Origin: a virus
DNA length: 37,393 bases
Reading direction: 5' to 3' (one strand)
IMG/VR virus record: IMGVR_UViG_3300031952_000063
Location: 1 to 37,393 of that record
This document shows positions 3,031-37,393 of the stretch, one piece after another (the first letter of the stretch is position 1; every line of letters begins with the position of its first letter). The translations under genes and the position numbers were made by a program. Below the pieces are notes generated by a model that made no database searches, was not told where the DNA came from, and was given only the letters and a program-made list of their open reading frames with translations.

Positions 3031-4182
3031 TCAGACAGTACCGTCATCTTGCAGGAAGCTGAACGCAGTGGTGATGAAGTCCTTGTTCAGGATTTCAAAG
3101 CCAGCATACAGTTGCCAGATCAGGATGATAAAGCGGCTGAAGTCATCGTTGTTGTTGATGAGGACTTGAGCGTTCGGGCCGCCAATACCAACGCCAACTG
3201 CTTGAGGACCGAAGAAGTAACCTTGGGCGACTTCGTAGGTACCTGCGCCGGGGGTAGTGCCCAGGGTAGCAGCTTGAGTTTTGGTTGGGAAGTTGGTGGA
3301 CTCGAAGAACTTCACGCCTTCAAACTGAACGCCAGTAGGCATCACAGGTTCACCGGCAAGGAAGTAACCTTGGCCGGCCTGAGGGCCCTGGAAGAAGCTA
3401 GCGTTGTTAGGCATCATGGGGTTACCCATGTACATGCCTTGACCAGGATTACCAGAGTAACGTGCAATCTCACGGAAGTCAGGGTCACGACGCAGATGCA
3501 TCATGAACGTGGGATCGCAAATACAACGATACAGGCCATCAGCGAAGGTAGGAACGTTGCGCTTACGCAGGTCCTTAACAACGGTCAGAAGGTCGGTACG
3601 AACTTGGAACTGCTGAACGTTAGCAGTGTACTCGTTGGCGGTGTAAGAAGGGTTCTTAGTCTTGTTGCCAGGGAAGTAGTAACCACCTTGGCTAGAAGAT
3701 GCAGGACCATTTGCTTCTGCCTTGGACAGTTCGTCAAGGAAGACGCGGTCACGCCAGCGGCGATAGTCGTCGAGCAAGGTCAGTGAACCGATGCTCTGGT
3801 GGAACATGTTCAGGTTACCGGTGTCCAGCAGCATGCGCTGGGCGGTAATCAGAGTTTCACGAGCAATCTTAAAGGTGCTGGGCTGAGTCGGATCGCCGGG
3901 GTCAGCAGGGCCAGTGTATTCCTTAAGCACCACAAGGACTTTCTCCTTGGTGATGTTACGGCTGTTGGCGGTACCGATGGTCTGGTCAGCGATGCGTTCG
4001 CGGCTGTCCTTAGTACCAGGGCTGCCCCAGAACTTGTAGCGGTCGAGCTGAACAGTTTGGCCAGGCTGGGAAGTAAAGTCGTGGACAACCACGGGCTCTA
4101 CAGCCATCTCGCAAATGTAAGCAGGGTGGGGGCGGTAAAGTTCCGCGCCCAGAATCTTAGGAAAGTCTGTATCAAGAAACAC
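3031..4182 (-). CDS. Major capsid protein
   Basis: 383 aa, with the length and motif style of HK97-fold major capsid proteins of the broad N4-gp56 type. The stretch RNVPTFADGLYRCICDP followed by MMHLRRDPDF resembles the conserved 'dG.Y..i.hP....lr.d' core, and FEGVKFFESTNFP is the typical later strand. The start is GTG at 4182, with GGAGG 10 nt upstream. It is preceded by a spacer of about 110 bp with a plausible promoter and lies downstream of portal and scaffold, the canonical head-gene order. The product would assemble the icosahedral shell around the scaffold. Confidence 0.88.
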   Translation of the reverse strand: MFLDTDFPKILGAELYRPHPAYICEMAVEPVVVHDFTSQPGQTVQLDRYKFWGSPGTKDSRERIADQTIGTANSRNITKEKVLVVLKEYTGPADPGDPTQPSTFKIARETLITAQRMLLDTGNLNMFHQSIGSLTLLDDYRRWRDRVFLDELSKAEANGPASSSQGGYYFPGNKTKNPSYTANEYTANVQQFQVRTDLLTVVKDLRKRNVPTFADGLYRCICDPTFMMHLRRDPDFREIARYSGNPGQGMYMGNPMMPNNASFFQGPQAGQGYFLAGEPVMPTGVQFEGVKFFESTNFPTKTQAATLGTTPGAGTYEVAQGYFFGPQAVGVGIGGPNAQVLINNNDDFSRFIILIWQLYAGFEILNKDFITTAFSFLQDDGTV

Positions 4183-4216
4183 TTTCTTTTATCCTCCAGT
4201 GTCGCTGTGGACGATT

Positions 4217-4244
4217 ATTTTATCGGGGAAAGATTCAGACACAA
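4217..4244 (-). promoter_or_regulatory. Candidate sigma70-type promoter for the capsid gene
   Basis: On the minus strand TTGTGT (4244..4239) is followed after 16 nt by TAAAAT (4222..4217), about 35 nt before the GTG start of the capsid gene. The -35 half overlaps a short GACAC/GTGTC inverted repeat. Found by eye only. Confidence 0.35.
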
Positions 4245-4292
4245 GTGTCTTATCTAACATAAATTTTAGCAGGCGCTAATTTACTAAATAAA

Positions 4293-28375: not shown

Positions 28376-28405
28376 AACGTCCTGAGCATGACGTTAAACT
28401 GCTCA
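28376..28405 (+). ncRNA. H-type pseudoknot element, copy c
   Basis: Stem 1 AACGTC/GACGTT (28376..28381 with 28390..28395), the longest copy. Stem 2 TGAGCA/TGCTCA (28383..28388 with 28400..28405). 26 nt before ATG 28432, the PcfJ-like gene. Confidence 0.78.
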
Positions 28406-30190: not shown

Positions 30191-30418
30191 ATGACTGAAC
30201 ACACCGACGAACAACTCCTAGCCATGGTAATGGCAAACCTAGGAGAGTATATGCACGATCATTCACCACACTATGTATTGATAGAAGAAGATCCACGTAA
30301 CGAAGATGACTTTGATACGTGGAGTTATGGTACAGAACCATTACCTTACGACCACACTTGGCGTTCTACATCAGTCGATGTAGATGTAAGCCCAAGCAAT
30401 GGAGATGTGGCGGAATAG
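30191..30418 (+). CDS. Hypothetical acidic early protein (75 aa)
   Basis: MTEHTDEQLLAMVMANLGEY, then an acidic end (SVDVDVSPSNGDVAE). The final 18 nt (30401..30418) are also the 5' end of the tRNA-Leu. Cleavage of the tRNA 5' end would remove the stop codon from this mRNA. No family recognised. Confidence 0.7.
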   Translation: MTEHTDEQLLAMVMANLGEYMHDHSPHYVLIEEDPRNEDDFDTWSYGTEPLPYDHTWRSTSVDVDVSPSNGDVAE

Positions 30419-30486
30419 GTAGACGCTACGCACTTAAAATGCGTTGACCTTTGGTCGTATCGGTTCGATCCCGATCATCTCTACCA
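30401..30486 (+). tRNA. tRNA-Leu(UAA)
   Basis: An 86-nt class II tRNA. Acceptor stem GGAGATG pairs with CATCTCT (one G-T pair). Anticodon loop CTTAAAA holds the TAA anticodon within the ACGCA/TGCGT stem. There is a long variable arm GACC-TTT-GGTC, a T-arm with GGTTCGATCCC, discriminator A and an encoded CCA. It decodes UUA leucine codons, which an A/T-rich phage in a GC-richer host may need. Its 5' end overlaps the upstream gene. Confidence 0.93.
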
Positions 30487-34343: not shown

Positions 34344-34582
34344 TTGTTATGCCCTACGTTATCTTCACAGTTGAAGACAATGTTAATTACTGCATCACTG
34401 CAGATAAAGAAACCATGTCATTCCAATTGATTCTTGTAGAATCGGATTCAGATTTATCACACGTGTTTAGCCATCCTTACCAAAGTGGTGCGTTAAATAT
34501 TCTTCGTTGGATCCAAGCTAATGACCATGCCCTCGCCAGTAAAGACCTCGTCATTTCCGATGAAGGACGATTCAGGCACTAA
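34331..34582 (+). CDS. Hypothetical early protein (83 aa)
   Basis: MIFHIVMPYVIFTVEDNVNY, beta-like with MSFQLILVESDSDLSHVF and an acidic or basic end (VISDEGRFRH). ATG 34349 (MPYVIFTVED) is a good alternative given the hairpin over ATG 34331. Its end overlaps DNA polymerase by 23 to 62 nt depending on the polymerase start. No family recognised. Confidence 0.65.
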   Translation: MIFHIVMPYVIFTVEDNVNYCITADKETMSFQLILVESDSDLSHVFSHPYQSGALNILRWIQANDHALASKDLVISDEGRFRH

Positions 34583-36386
34583 GAAATGGTACGTATTTGA
34601 TTTGGAGACCGACGGTCTGTACAATGAAGTTACAACGATTCACTGTCTGGTCTTACATGATCTCAACAGAGACCAGACTTTTACTTATGGGCCTGACAGC
34701 ATTACTGCTGGTCTTGAGCATCTGGCTACCGCTCATGTTCTAATAGGACAGAACATTTTATTTTTTGACATCCCTGTAATACGTAAGCTGTATCCGTTTT
34801 ATACGTTTGCGGCTGCTCGTATTATTGACACACTCATTACAACACGACTCATCTGGCCCAAGGAAAAACTCTATGACATGGACACAGAACAATATACGCA
34901 GGTTCCACCGAAGCTGCGTGGTTCAGCATCACTCAAGGCATGGGGCTATCGTCTATCAGATTACAAGATTGACTTTAAAGATTTCAAAGAGTACAGCGAA
35001 GAAATGTTGGCATACTGCGTCCAGGATGTTAATGTCACTACGCAATTGTTTAAGCACACGCAAAAACAGTCATGCTCTGAGGCGGCGCTCAAACTGGAAC
35101 ATGATTTTGCTTTGGCAATTGAAAAACAAATTAGGTCAGGTTTTCCTTTTGATGTGGATGCATGTCTTGATTTGGTGGATGATCTCAGAACAAAACAGGC
35201 GACGCTCGAAACTTATCTAAAAGAACTATTCCCACCTAAAAAGATTGAGACAGTATTTATTCCTAAGGTAAACAATACAAGTCGTGGTTATGTCAAGGGC
35301 CAGCCGTTTACTAAAGTCATGCATGAAGAATTTAATCCTGGGTCACGTCAACAGATTGTAGATCGACTGCAAACTAAGTACGGGTGGGTGCCTGAGAAGT
35401 CAACAGAGAAAGGCAATCCTATTTTGGATGATGACGTACTGAGTGCTCTTCCATACCCAGAGGCTAAGCCCTTAGCTGAGTACATGCTGATCAAGAAAAG
35501 GCTTGGTCAGATAGCTGATGGTAACAATGCATGGTTGAAGTTAGTCAATGATGAGACCGGATGCATGCACGGTGATGTAGTAACTAACGGATGTATTACT
35601 GGTAGGTGTGCACACCGCAACCCAAACATGGGGCAGGTTCCCGCTGGTTATTCAGAGTACGGTAAAGAATGCCGTGGATTATTTCATGCACCTGATGGCT
35701 GGACCTTGATTGGTGTAGATGCCAAGGCATTGGAGCTGCGTTGTCTTGCTGGTTACCTTGCCCATTGGGATGGCGGTGAGTATGCACGTGTAGTAACAGA
35801 TGAATCAATTGATATTCATACATACAATCAAGAAATGTTTGGTGTGCCTACCAGGGATATAGCAAAGCGTTTGTTGTATGGCTTGTTGTATGGATGTGGT
35901 GCACTCAAGGCAGGAACAATTATTGATCCGAATGAAAAAAATGAATTGATTCTGCGTGAATTAGGAAGTACGGCAATCAATTCATTTATGAAAGGTATAC
36001 CCGCATTGAAAGAACTTAAGAACAGAATTGCAAATAACATTGCAGCTCGTGGTTACCTTATTGGTTTAGATGGTAGACCACTTTTTTGTAGATCTGATTT
36101 TAAAGGATTGAATGTATTACTGCAAGCATCTGGTGCACTCATAATGAAACAAGTTGTTATTGAACTGCATAACAAAATGTACGACCTTGGTTATTTTTAT
36201 GGGCACGATTGGCAGCAAAACGCTATGATCCATGACGAAATTGAAGTATCTTGTTCTTTAGATATGGTAGATACCTTGACAACCATTGCATTAGAATCCT
36301 TTCCCGCATCGCAACAATTTTTTAACTTCCAATGTTCTATTGAGGGTAATGCTAAAGTTGGCCGCACTTGGTACGAGGTACACTAA
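34521..36386 (+). CDS. Family A (T7/Pol I-type) DNA polymerase with proofreading domain
   Basis: Replicates the phage genome. The 3'-5' exonuclease domain shows FDLETDG (D27, E29), LIGQNILFFD and YCVQDVN. The polymerase domain shows motif A at D400 (VDAKALELR), motif B RDIAKRLLYGLLYGCGA (K449, Y453, as in T7), and motif C HDEIE (D572). In motif A the residue normally Ser (DxSxxE) is Lys. At 621 aa it is shorter than T7 polymerase (about 700). ATG 34527 and 34560 are alternative starts. Its last ~90 nt are repeated downstream of the next gene. Helicase and primase are not in the window. Confidence 0.93.
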   Translation: MTMPSPVKTSSFPMKDDSGTKKWYVFDLETDGLYNEVTTIHCLVLHDLNRDQTFTYGPDSITAGLEHLATAHVLIGQNILFFDIPVIRKLYPFYTFAAARIIDTLITTRLIWPKEKLYDMDTEQYTQVPPKLRGSASLKAWGYRLSDYKIDFKDFKEYSEEMLAYCVQDVNVTTQLFKHTQKQSCSEAALKLEHDFALAIEKQIRSGFPFDVDACLDLVDDLRTKQATLETYLKELFPPKKIETVFIPKVNNTSRGYVKGQPFTKVMHEEFNPGSRQQIVDRLQTKYGWVPEKSTEKGNPILDDDVLSALPYPEAKPLAEYMLIKKRLGQIADGNNAWLKLVNDETGCMHGDVVTNGCITGRCAHRNPNMGQVPAGYSEYGKECRGLFHAPDGWTLIGVDAKALELRCLAGYLAHWDGGEYARVVTDESIDIHTYNQEMFGVPTRDIAKRLLYGLLYGCGALKAGTIIDPNEKNELILRELGSTAINSFMKGIPALKELKNRIANNIAARGYLIGLDGRPLFCRSDFKGLNVLLQASGALIMKQVVIELHNKMYDLGYFYGHDWQQNAMIHDEIEVSCSLDMVDTLTTIALESFPASQQFFNFQCSIEGNAKVGRTWYEVH

Positions 36387-36387
36387 T

Positions 36388-36882
36388 ATGACTTATCATA
36401 TTTACTTAAAAGAACTTCCTGAAAAAAAGTATTTAAATCAAGTTTTAGAATATAAAAAAGAAACGGGGTATGTTTATTGGCGTTCAAGTAATAAAATTGT
36501 TAAGTTGTGCACAACAACTAAAGGTGCAAGATATAAAAGAATAATGATTAATAGTGAACACTATGTATTGCATAGGATCATTTATCAAATGCATTATGGT
36601 GATTTATTGTCTAGTGAAGTTATTGATCATATAGACAGAAACAAACAAAATAATAAAATTGAAAACTTAAGAAAAGCTAATGTATTTATTAATAATCAAA
36701 ACCAAGGAGAAAGAAAAAATAACACCTCAGGATACAAAGGTGTTTCATGGTCTAAACAAAGAAACAAATGGAGAGCAACAATAACAATAAATAAAAAGCA
36801 TAAACATCTTGGATTTTTTGCAACCAAAGAAGAAGCTTTCATTTGTTATCAAAAAGCTAAGGCAACGTTTCACAGTGGTTAA
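36388..36882 (+). CDS. HNH-AP2 homing endonuclease
   Basis: 164 aa. The HNH region (residues 60-105) has YVLHRIIYQMHYGD, EVIDHIDRNKQNN and IENLRKANVFIN. An AP2-type DNA-binding domain (115-160) has SGYKGVSWSKQRNKWRAT and KHLGFFATKEEA. Free-standing HNH-AP2 enzymes cut DNA in a related phage and are copied in during repair. Strongly A/T-rich compared with neighbours, a sign of transfer. It begins one base after the polymerase stop and is followed by a displaced second polymerase 3' end. Confidence 0.88.
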   Translation: MTYHIYLKELPEKKYLNQVLEYKKETGYVYWRSSNKIVKLCTTTKGARYKRIMINSEHYVLHRIIYQMHYGDLLSSEVIDHIDRNKQNNKIENLRKANVFINNQNQGERKNNTSGYKGVSWSKQRNKWRATITINKKHKHLGFFATKEEAFICYQKAKATFHSG

Positions 36883-36905
36883 TTTAAGTGTCTTGTCCGC
36901 CAGCT

Positions 36906-37001
36906 ATGGTGGATACCTTGACAGCCGTTGCATTAGAAGCCTTCCCTGCATCGCAACAATTCTTTAACTTCCAGTGTCCTATTGAAGGGATGCTCATGTA
37001 G
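36906..37001 (+). pseudogene. Displaced remnant of the DNA polymerase 3' end
   Basis: MVDTLTAVALEAFPASQQFF, then NFQCPIEG, matches the polymerase C-terminus at about 36263..36350 residue by residue with mostly silent differences, ending after IEGMLM with a stop. It is GC-richer than the polymerase copy upstream. It reads as the original 3' end, left behind when the HNH gene arrived with its own polymerase end. Too short to have a function by itself. Confidence 0.82.
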
Positions 37002-37032
37002 GCTATAGCTGGAATCAAACCCACTAGCCGCC

Positions 37033-37059
37033 CGTCCCAAGCATGACGATAAACTGCTT
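37033..37059 (+). ncRNA. H-type pseudoknot element, copy e
   Basis: Stem 1 CGTC/GACG (37033..37036 with 37045..37048) and stem 2 AAGCA/TGCTT (37039..37043 with 37055..37059), joined by ATAAAC. The A-T pair at the foot of stem 2 replaces the G-C of copies b to d on both sides. 21 nt before ATG 37081. Confidence 0.72.
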
Positions 37060-37080: not shown

Positions 37081-37393
37081 ATGAATCAAACATTTGTTTG
37101 CGCCCAAACAACCGAAGTCCCTCGCGAAGTTGCCATCAGTGCTACTAACTACGCTATGCGTTGTGCAGTATTGTTGCCTCCCGTTGGGAACAAAGCACCA
37201 ACTTCAATCGAACTTAATGTCTATGGAAAAAGTGCAGAACGTTTCGCTCGTACAACTCGAGGAGCGCAGATCTACATTCACGGCGCCAAGCTACGTTTCG
37301 ATCTGGAGTCCCGTACGTATTCTTTGCATGGAGGAATCATTGCAACGGTGGATGAATCATTCCCGATCCTTAACACCGTTATCCTCAGTGGAC
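37081..37393 (+). CDS. Second OB-fold protein, SSB-like, cut by window end
   Basis: 104 codons visible, no stop. MNQTFVCAQTTEVPREVAIS, then IELNVYGKSAERFARTTRGA, then QIYIHGAKLRFDLESRTYSL resembles the SSB plan ('v.v.g..a......kG..v.v.G.l..d'). It may be the replication SSB of the phage, with the protein at 23660 as a second OB-fold protein. It follows pseudoknot copy e. The assignment is tentative because the C-terminus is missing. Confidence 0.65.
   Translation, partial: MNQTFVCAQTTEVPREVAISATNYAMRCAVLLPPVGNKAPTSIELNVYGKSAERFARTTRGAQIYIHGAKLRFDLESRTYSLHGGIIATVDESFPILNTVILSG

Follow-up and report, generated by a model that had tools for sequence, protein, structure and literature searches.

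The polA–HNH locus

The window, which is the whole stretch of 37,393 nucleotides that was analysed, is an IMG/VR virus record (IMGVR_UViG_3300031952_000063) from an S-EIV1-like freshwater cyanophage. The GenBank entry that best matches its polA region is Synechococcus phage S-EIV1 (spelled S-EIVl in the record), at 85% identity over 81% of the query. The features of the locus, all on the plus strand, are listed below with the evidence for each; L numbers denote loci compared with the window.

34521..36386, + strand: polA, a family A DNA polymerase gene, hybrid of a resident body and a foreign 3' end (Pfam/PHROGs; amino acid identity; body tree)
36231..36245, + strand: motif C codons CAT GAC GAA ATT GAA (HDEIE), proposed cut-site region, at the same place as the L110/L027 change-point
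36240..36386, + strand: active donor-type (foreign) polA 3' end, closing with WYEVH-stop (identity and dS comparisons)
36388..36882, + strand: HNH_3 homing endonuclease gene, 164 amino acids, with a weak C-terminal AP2 match (Pfam, PHROGs, L006 comparison)
36886..37027, + strand: fossil of the resident polA 3' end (alignment to relatives; shuffles)
37033..37059, + strand: conserved leader ahead of the ssDNA-binding protein gene, where resident sequence restarts
37081..37393, + strand: ssDNA-binding protein gene (ssb), resident flank, cut by the contig end (phrog_44)

The polA gene has 621 codons and a Pfam DNA_pol_A match of 2.9e-35, and its whole protein shares 94% amino acid identity with that of L002 and 87% with that of S-EIV1 (L005). 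Its Gln-to-Glu codon lies at 36243-36245. The intact HNH gene starts with an ATG at 36388, a single base behind the TAA stop of polA at 36384-36386, and a second polA 3' end follows it at 36886-37027. The order of these parts agrees with the preliminary description. The ssb gene shares 98% DNA identity with L002.

The active end and the downstream remnant

The remnant starts at about 36886 and closes with a TAG at 37025-37027, and is longer than the 36906-37001 given earlier. Its start corresponds to the Gln codon that relatives have behind HDE-[IV], which reads TAA here. A base present in relatives is missing near 36986-36990, and the remnant is frameshifted. The match is non-random, with a local alignment score of 110 versus a maximum of 17 in 200 shuffles.

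The two closest relatives without the HNH gene are L002, an IMG/VR contig, and S-EIV1. The remnant is identical to the HNH-less L002 at 125 of 142 positions and to the HNH-less S-EIV1 at 126 of 142 (88-89%), whereas the active end agrees with them at only 107 and 106 of 144 positions, respectively (74%). The active end and the remnant are 77% identical to each other. Between the window and L002, dS is 1.22 in the last 47 codons versus 0.25 in the gene body. Between L002 and S-EIV1, both HNH-less, dS is 0.37 in the end versus 0.71 in the body; given that the end is conserved there, the polA end is not a mutational hot spot. Because of this identity pattern and the contrast in dS between end and body, the active end is judged to be foreign and the remnant to be the old resident end. 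The donor was probably itself S-EIV1-like, since similarity to the resident type persists in the middle of the active end.

The history first suggested for the locus, in which the nuclease arrived with a donor polA end and pushed the old end downstream as a fossil, is thus supported by both identities and dS. Relatives lacking the HNH gene had been expected to carry a remnant-type end, and both close ones, L002 and S-EIV1, do exactly that; no HNH-less relative with an upstream-type end was found among close relatives. The "many silent differences" attributed to the two ends are only part of the divergence: 26 of 47 codons differ between the active end and that of L002, 12 of them silently and 14 with a change of amino acid.

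A tandem duplication of the resident end, with the upstream copy then diverging rapidly, for example under selection to escape a nuclease, would also place two ends at the locus, and among the sampled ends those of S-EIV1 type are indeed the closest to the active end, which is 77% identical to the remnant and has an S-EIV1-like middle. Such a history is improbable, given that dS is about fivefold higher in the active end than in the gene body, that the Glu and the Tyr and Val marks of this end (see below) are common to unrelated carriers, and that L110, L115 and L130 have a foreign end without a full duplicate. The dS values and the shared end marks contradict duplication.

The HNH nuclease

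The product of the HNH gene matches Pfam HNH_3 at 6.7e-13, with 48.5 bits versus a curated cut-off of 24.8. The C-terminal AP2 match (E 8.4e-6, 26.4 bits) falls below the Pfam cut-off of 33.3. The nearest solved structure by sequence is I-HmuI (1u3e), a distant match with E 0.0083. The protein is 79% identical to the product of the gene at the same place in L006, and because dN is 0.13 versus a dS of 1.44 between the two genes, the HNH gene is considered to be under purifying selection.

The nuclease is free-standing, encoded by its own open reading frame beside the presumed target and outside any intron or intein. Introns with HNH genes do interrupt DNA polymerase genes of phages (PMC3428280), and the remnant could accordingly be read as the 3' exon of a polA interrupted by a group I intron or intein. 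This reading is rejected for the window and is the least probable of those considered, since the upstream polA is a complete gene that ends in a stop of its own, no Rfam intron family was found in the window at the gathering threshold, and the remnant is frameshifted and repeats sequence that is already present. On these grounds, neither a catalytic RNA nor an in-frame splicing domain is taken to interrupt polA.

Inspection places the start of the HNH frames of L021 and L075 within polA codons, and therefore the end and the nuclease gene are tied together and cannot part there. A role of the WYEVH codons in ribosome binding ahead of the HNH gene was considered and dropped; the GAGGT string is present in some carriers only.

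A signature residue beside the catalytic motif

Aligned S-EIV1-like polymerases separate at the residue two after the catalytic HDE, which changes from Gln (HDE-x-Gln, 45 of 45 rows) to Glu (HDE-x-Glu, 11 of 11 rows). Two further positions distinguish the groups: at W+1, the residue following the last Trp, Glu rows have Tyr, Phe or Met, and at the second-last position 10 of the 11 Glu rows have Val, versus Thr in 42 of the 45 Gln rows. Gln is probably the ancestral state, because T7 DNA polymerase reads HDEIQ in this motif.

Nine carriers of the HNH gene are found in the S-EIV1-like group. Eight have Glu (the window, L006, L098, L021, L075, L103, L110 and L112), of which the first five were found independently of Glu and the last three through a pattern that demands it. 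The ninth, L189, has an HNH gene adjoining a Gln-type end and is counter-evidence to a joint movement of nuclease and end. The Glu pattern retrieved 12 contigs with HNH behind nine of them (L102 to L105, L107, L108 and L110 to L112), and the Gln pattern, which matches at least 120 contigs, gave HNH behind one of 120 among the matches listed, 110 of which have at least 500 bases downstream. Fisher's test with the first 80 Gln contigs gives 2.4e-9, for contigs that are not independent of one another.

Glu-type ends without an intact HNH gene behind polA occur in three more distant phages, L063, L109 and L113. Carrier-type ends in L063 and L113, as in L137 of a second family, have no HNH gene. 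Behind the polA stop of L109, inspection finds an apparent HNH vestige, in which the first bases of an L103-like HNH gene are joined to something like its last part, so that L109 looks like a carrier with its HNH gene mostly deleted. L063 (IMGVR_UViG_3300035703_000053) also has an in-frame insert of about 250 residues in the exonuclease part of its polymerase, at about 3520-4278. Judged by eye, the insert looks like an intein, given that it begins with Cys, ends with HN-Cys and has a LAGLIDADG-like stretch.

Trees of polymerase bodies and ends

A tree of polymerase bodies was built from 56 rows with columns up to ten before HDE. On this tree the HNH label needs eight changes and the Glu label ten, no fewer than shuffled labels, and of eight independent pairs a mean of 7.6 are concordant for the two labels (median p 0.008). 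A single Glu clade is rejected for the bodies (AU p 2.5e-60), which rules out a single origin of Glu-type polymerases on the body tree. On the tree of ends, made without the Gln/Glu column, the Glu rows are clustered, with five changes versus a shuffled mean of 10.2 and none of 500 shuffles as low, and one Glu clade is not rejected (p 0.15); with its 50 columns, this tree has support at few forks, and its details are weak. Phage polA trees may mix two histories within one gene.

From one set of 80 loci, the trees take those other than the distant L074 and L076-L097, L055 and L071, which are cut before the end, and L020, L029, L036, L039, L040, L046, L050, L054, L061 and L067, which come from the same contig as kept rows or are very like them. 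L063 is represented only by the part behind its intein and L070 only by the final 355 codons; L189, a later find, is absent from the trees.

Conversion borders and other remnants

Borders were located as change-points of the mismatch rate in pairs with and without the HNH gene, with positions counted from the polA stop. L110 compared with L027 and with L028 gives a change-point at -144, with an interval of -148 to -141 that corresponds to the Gln/Glu codon. The change-point of L006 is near -142 (wide), and that of L075 near -165, with an interval reaching to -226 against one of two relatives. HNH-less control pairs show weak shifts only, with lnL gains of 2.9 to 6.8 versus 12 to 80. The conversion border that had been placed within polA of the window is recorded there, with its change-point at -40, but the broad interval of -145 to -30 does not fix it to one base.

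The old end is gone in most other carriers. L098 has a 47-base match to a resident end downstream of its HNH gene, with a score of 25 that none of 200 shuffles reached (maximum 17). Shuffle tests in six other carriers gave no sign of a fossil (4 of 200 shuffles as high in L006; 61 to 190 of 200 in L110, L075, L021, L112 and L115), and the L103 contig ends within its HNH gene. The nuclease frame of L189 continues through a duplicate of the final 15 polA codons and terminates at the stop of that duplicate. The two copies have silent changes in 10 of 15 codons, plus Ile/Leu and Ala/Ser differences, and the nine nearest rows, some of them near-duplicates, are closer to the downstream copy than to the upstream one. 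Because the duplicated part begins 32 codons past the Gln codon, at IEGD, the cut site may be another one in L189, and this would account for its Gln.

An assembly chimera of two co-occurring phages was considered, as the window was assembled from a metagenome and samples of that kind do contain HNH-less relatives. This is very improbable, since the same arrangement occurs in independent contigs from different samples with differing ends and borders, and the remnant has disabling changes of its own. The window is one of many such events and not a one-off.

A second phage family

The polymerase of L107 and L108 (the same contigs as L116 and L115) is only about 26% identical to that of the window. 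By polA DNA, the nearest isolate to the L108 lineage is a Vibrio phage classed in Zobellviridae, although the search of isolates gave weak matches only; the record of Vibrio phage 1.293.O has no HNH gene annotated after polA.

L115, with an HNH gene and HDEVE, and L118, without one and with HDEYT, are 99.4% identical upstream and 99.6% identical over 1,200 bases downstream, whereas the last 222 bases of polA differ by about 30%. The borders of L110 and L115, together with flanks at least 99% identical in L115 and L118, define a co-conversion tract that adjoins the HNH gene. A second pair, L130 (HNH, HDEFS) and L127 (no HNH, HDEYQ), also changes at -222, and downstream of the L130 HNH gene the resident sequence restarts at the old stop. 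At the signature codon, L130-type carriers encode Ser instead of Glu, and L137 has an L130-type end without an HNH gene. L121 has an HNH match and keeps Thr (HDEYT), with no border visible against L120 or L122.

Proposed mechanism

It is very probable, from comparison of the sequences, that the free-standing HNH homing nuclease and the polA 3' end travel as one cassette. The nuclease would cut polA of a co-infecting phage, in the lineage of the window near motif C (HDE-[IV]-Gln). The sequences show that the foreign polA 3' end and the adjoining HNH gene entered the recipient together and that the hybrid polymerase stays in frame; repair from the co-infecting donor would have copied them. The travelling end is probably cut-proof: with the Gln codon CAR changed to the Glu codon GAR, and with many silent changes, the recipient would no longer be cut. 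In the window, the old 3' end of the recipient remains behind the HNH gene and is decaying, as its one-base deletion and its stop at the Gln codon show. This reading has to be taken with the exception of L189, with the carrier-type ends of L063, L113 and L137 that have no HNH gene, with the Ser of L130-type carriers and the Thr of L121, with the broad change-point of the window itself, and with the fact that part of the Glu set was found through a Glu-demanding pattern.

Plain intronless homing, in which the nuclease occupies the gap between genes, the polA end is ordinary co-conversion and a kept old end is a meaningless repair accident, is unlikely, although it deserves more weight than the other alternatives. 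Free-standing phage nucleases are well known to be accompanied by co-conversion (PMC2988022), and most carriers have no fossil. The end, however, changes along with the nuclease in close pairs, a fixed three-residue signature appears in scattered lineages, and the HNH frames of L021 and L075 begin within polA codons.

Beyond joint travel as a cassette, it is an evenly balanced proposition that the cassettes act as natural cleave-and-rescue drives, a name taken from the gene-drive literature. The nuclease would destroy the polymerase gene of rivals and the recoded, cut-immune end would restore the essential gene, and repeated use would have reshaped the C-terminal palm, including the residue two past HDE, in at least two phage families.

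Relation to known systems

By analogy, the nearest published arrangement is the gene hybrid of fungal mitochondria formed by mobile open reading frames, as described for atp6 of Allomyces (cited there) and for atp6, atp9, cox2 and nad3 of Glomus (PMC3630166). In those hybrids, as here, an endonuclease reading frame arrives together with a foreign 3' end that substitutes in frame for that of the host gene, and the native end lies downstream and matches close relatives. The layout of foreign 3' end, endonuclease gene and native duplicate is present in the window, with shorter native ends in L098 and L189. The fungal cases, as that report presents them, involve LAGLIDADG or GIY-YIG endonucleases in mitochondrial genomes, whereas the gene here is of the HNH_3 type and phage-borne, and the hybrid is the replicative polymerase, with a repeated change next to HDE.

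Among phages, the seg and mob genes of T4-like phages provide intronless homing by free-standing nucleases with co-conversion (PMC2988022), and share with the present loci a nuclease gene beside its presumed target and co-converted flanks. In the T4 cases the cut is hundreds to thousands of bases away, whereas the borders here fall some 140-220 bases ahead of the polA stop, and a fossil of the old end is sometimes retained. F-CphI of cyanophage S-PM2, an example of collaborative homing (PMC6083498), is likewise a free-standing cyanophage nuclease beside its target in which a change of the target prevents self-cutting; an intron blocks the site there, whereas codon changes within coding sequence are proposed here. 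I-HmuI and I-PfoP3I are also HNH nucleases aimed at a family A polymerase gene, but are encoded in introns of phage DNA polymerase genes and come, in the account available, without a replaced gene end (PMC3428280). IPA-HNH nucleases have the HNH plus AP2 layout, and 29% of their genes lie near DNA polymerase genes; unlike here, no replaced ends or fossils are described for them in the accessible part of that work (PMC10448857).

A literature search of titles and abstract openings, with most subscription journals outside its range, found no phage polA ends that move with a nuclease. On this basis, a recurring phage polA-end cassette, with a diagnostic change at a neighbour of the active site and with fossils of the old end, appears to be new. 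Fossils and near-identical pairs with and without the nuclease point to a selfish nuclease that rewrites the end of an essential phage replication gene, and the system is ready for testing, since the sequence itself gives the putative cut site, the putative immunity codon and the succession of events.

Other features of the window and its relatives

In L002, L005, L022, L043 and L070, the gap between polA and ssb holds small open reading frames. Because these differ from one relative to another, they suggest that the gap is an insertion hot spot. A leader of the CGTCC..GCATGACGTTAAACTGC type is present at two sites in the window, 28378-28404 and 37033-37059, as well as before ssb in relatives, and is perhaps a promoter or regulatory element. 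The window also has a tRNA-Leu (anticodon TAA) at 30401-30486, and L002 has a tRNA too.
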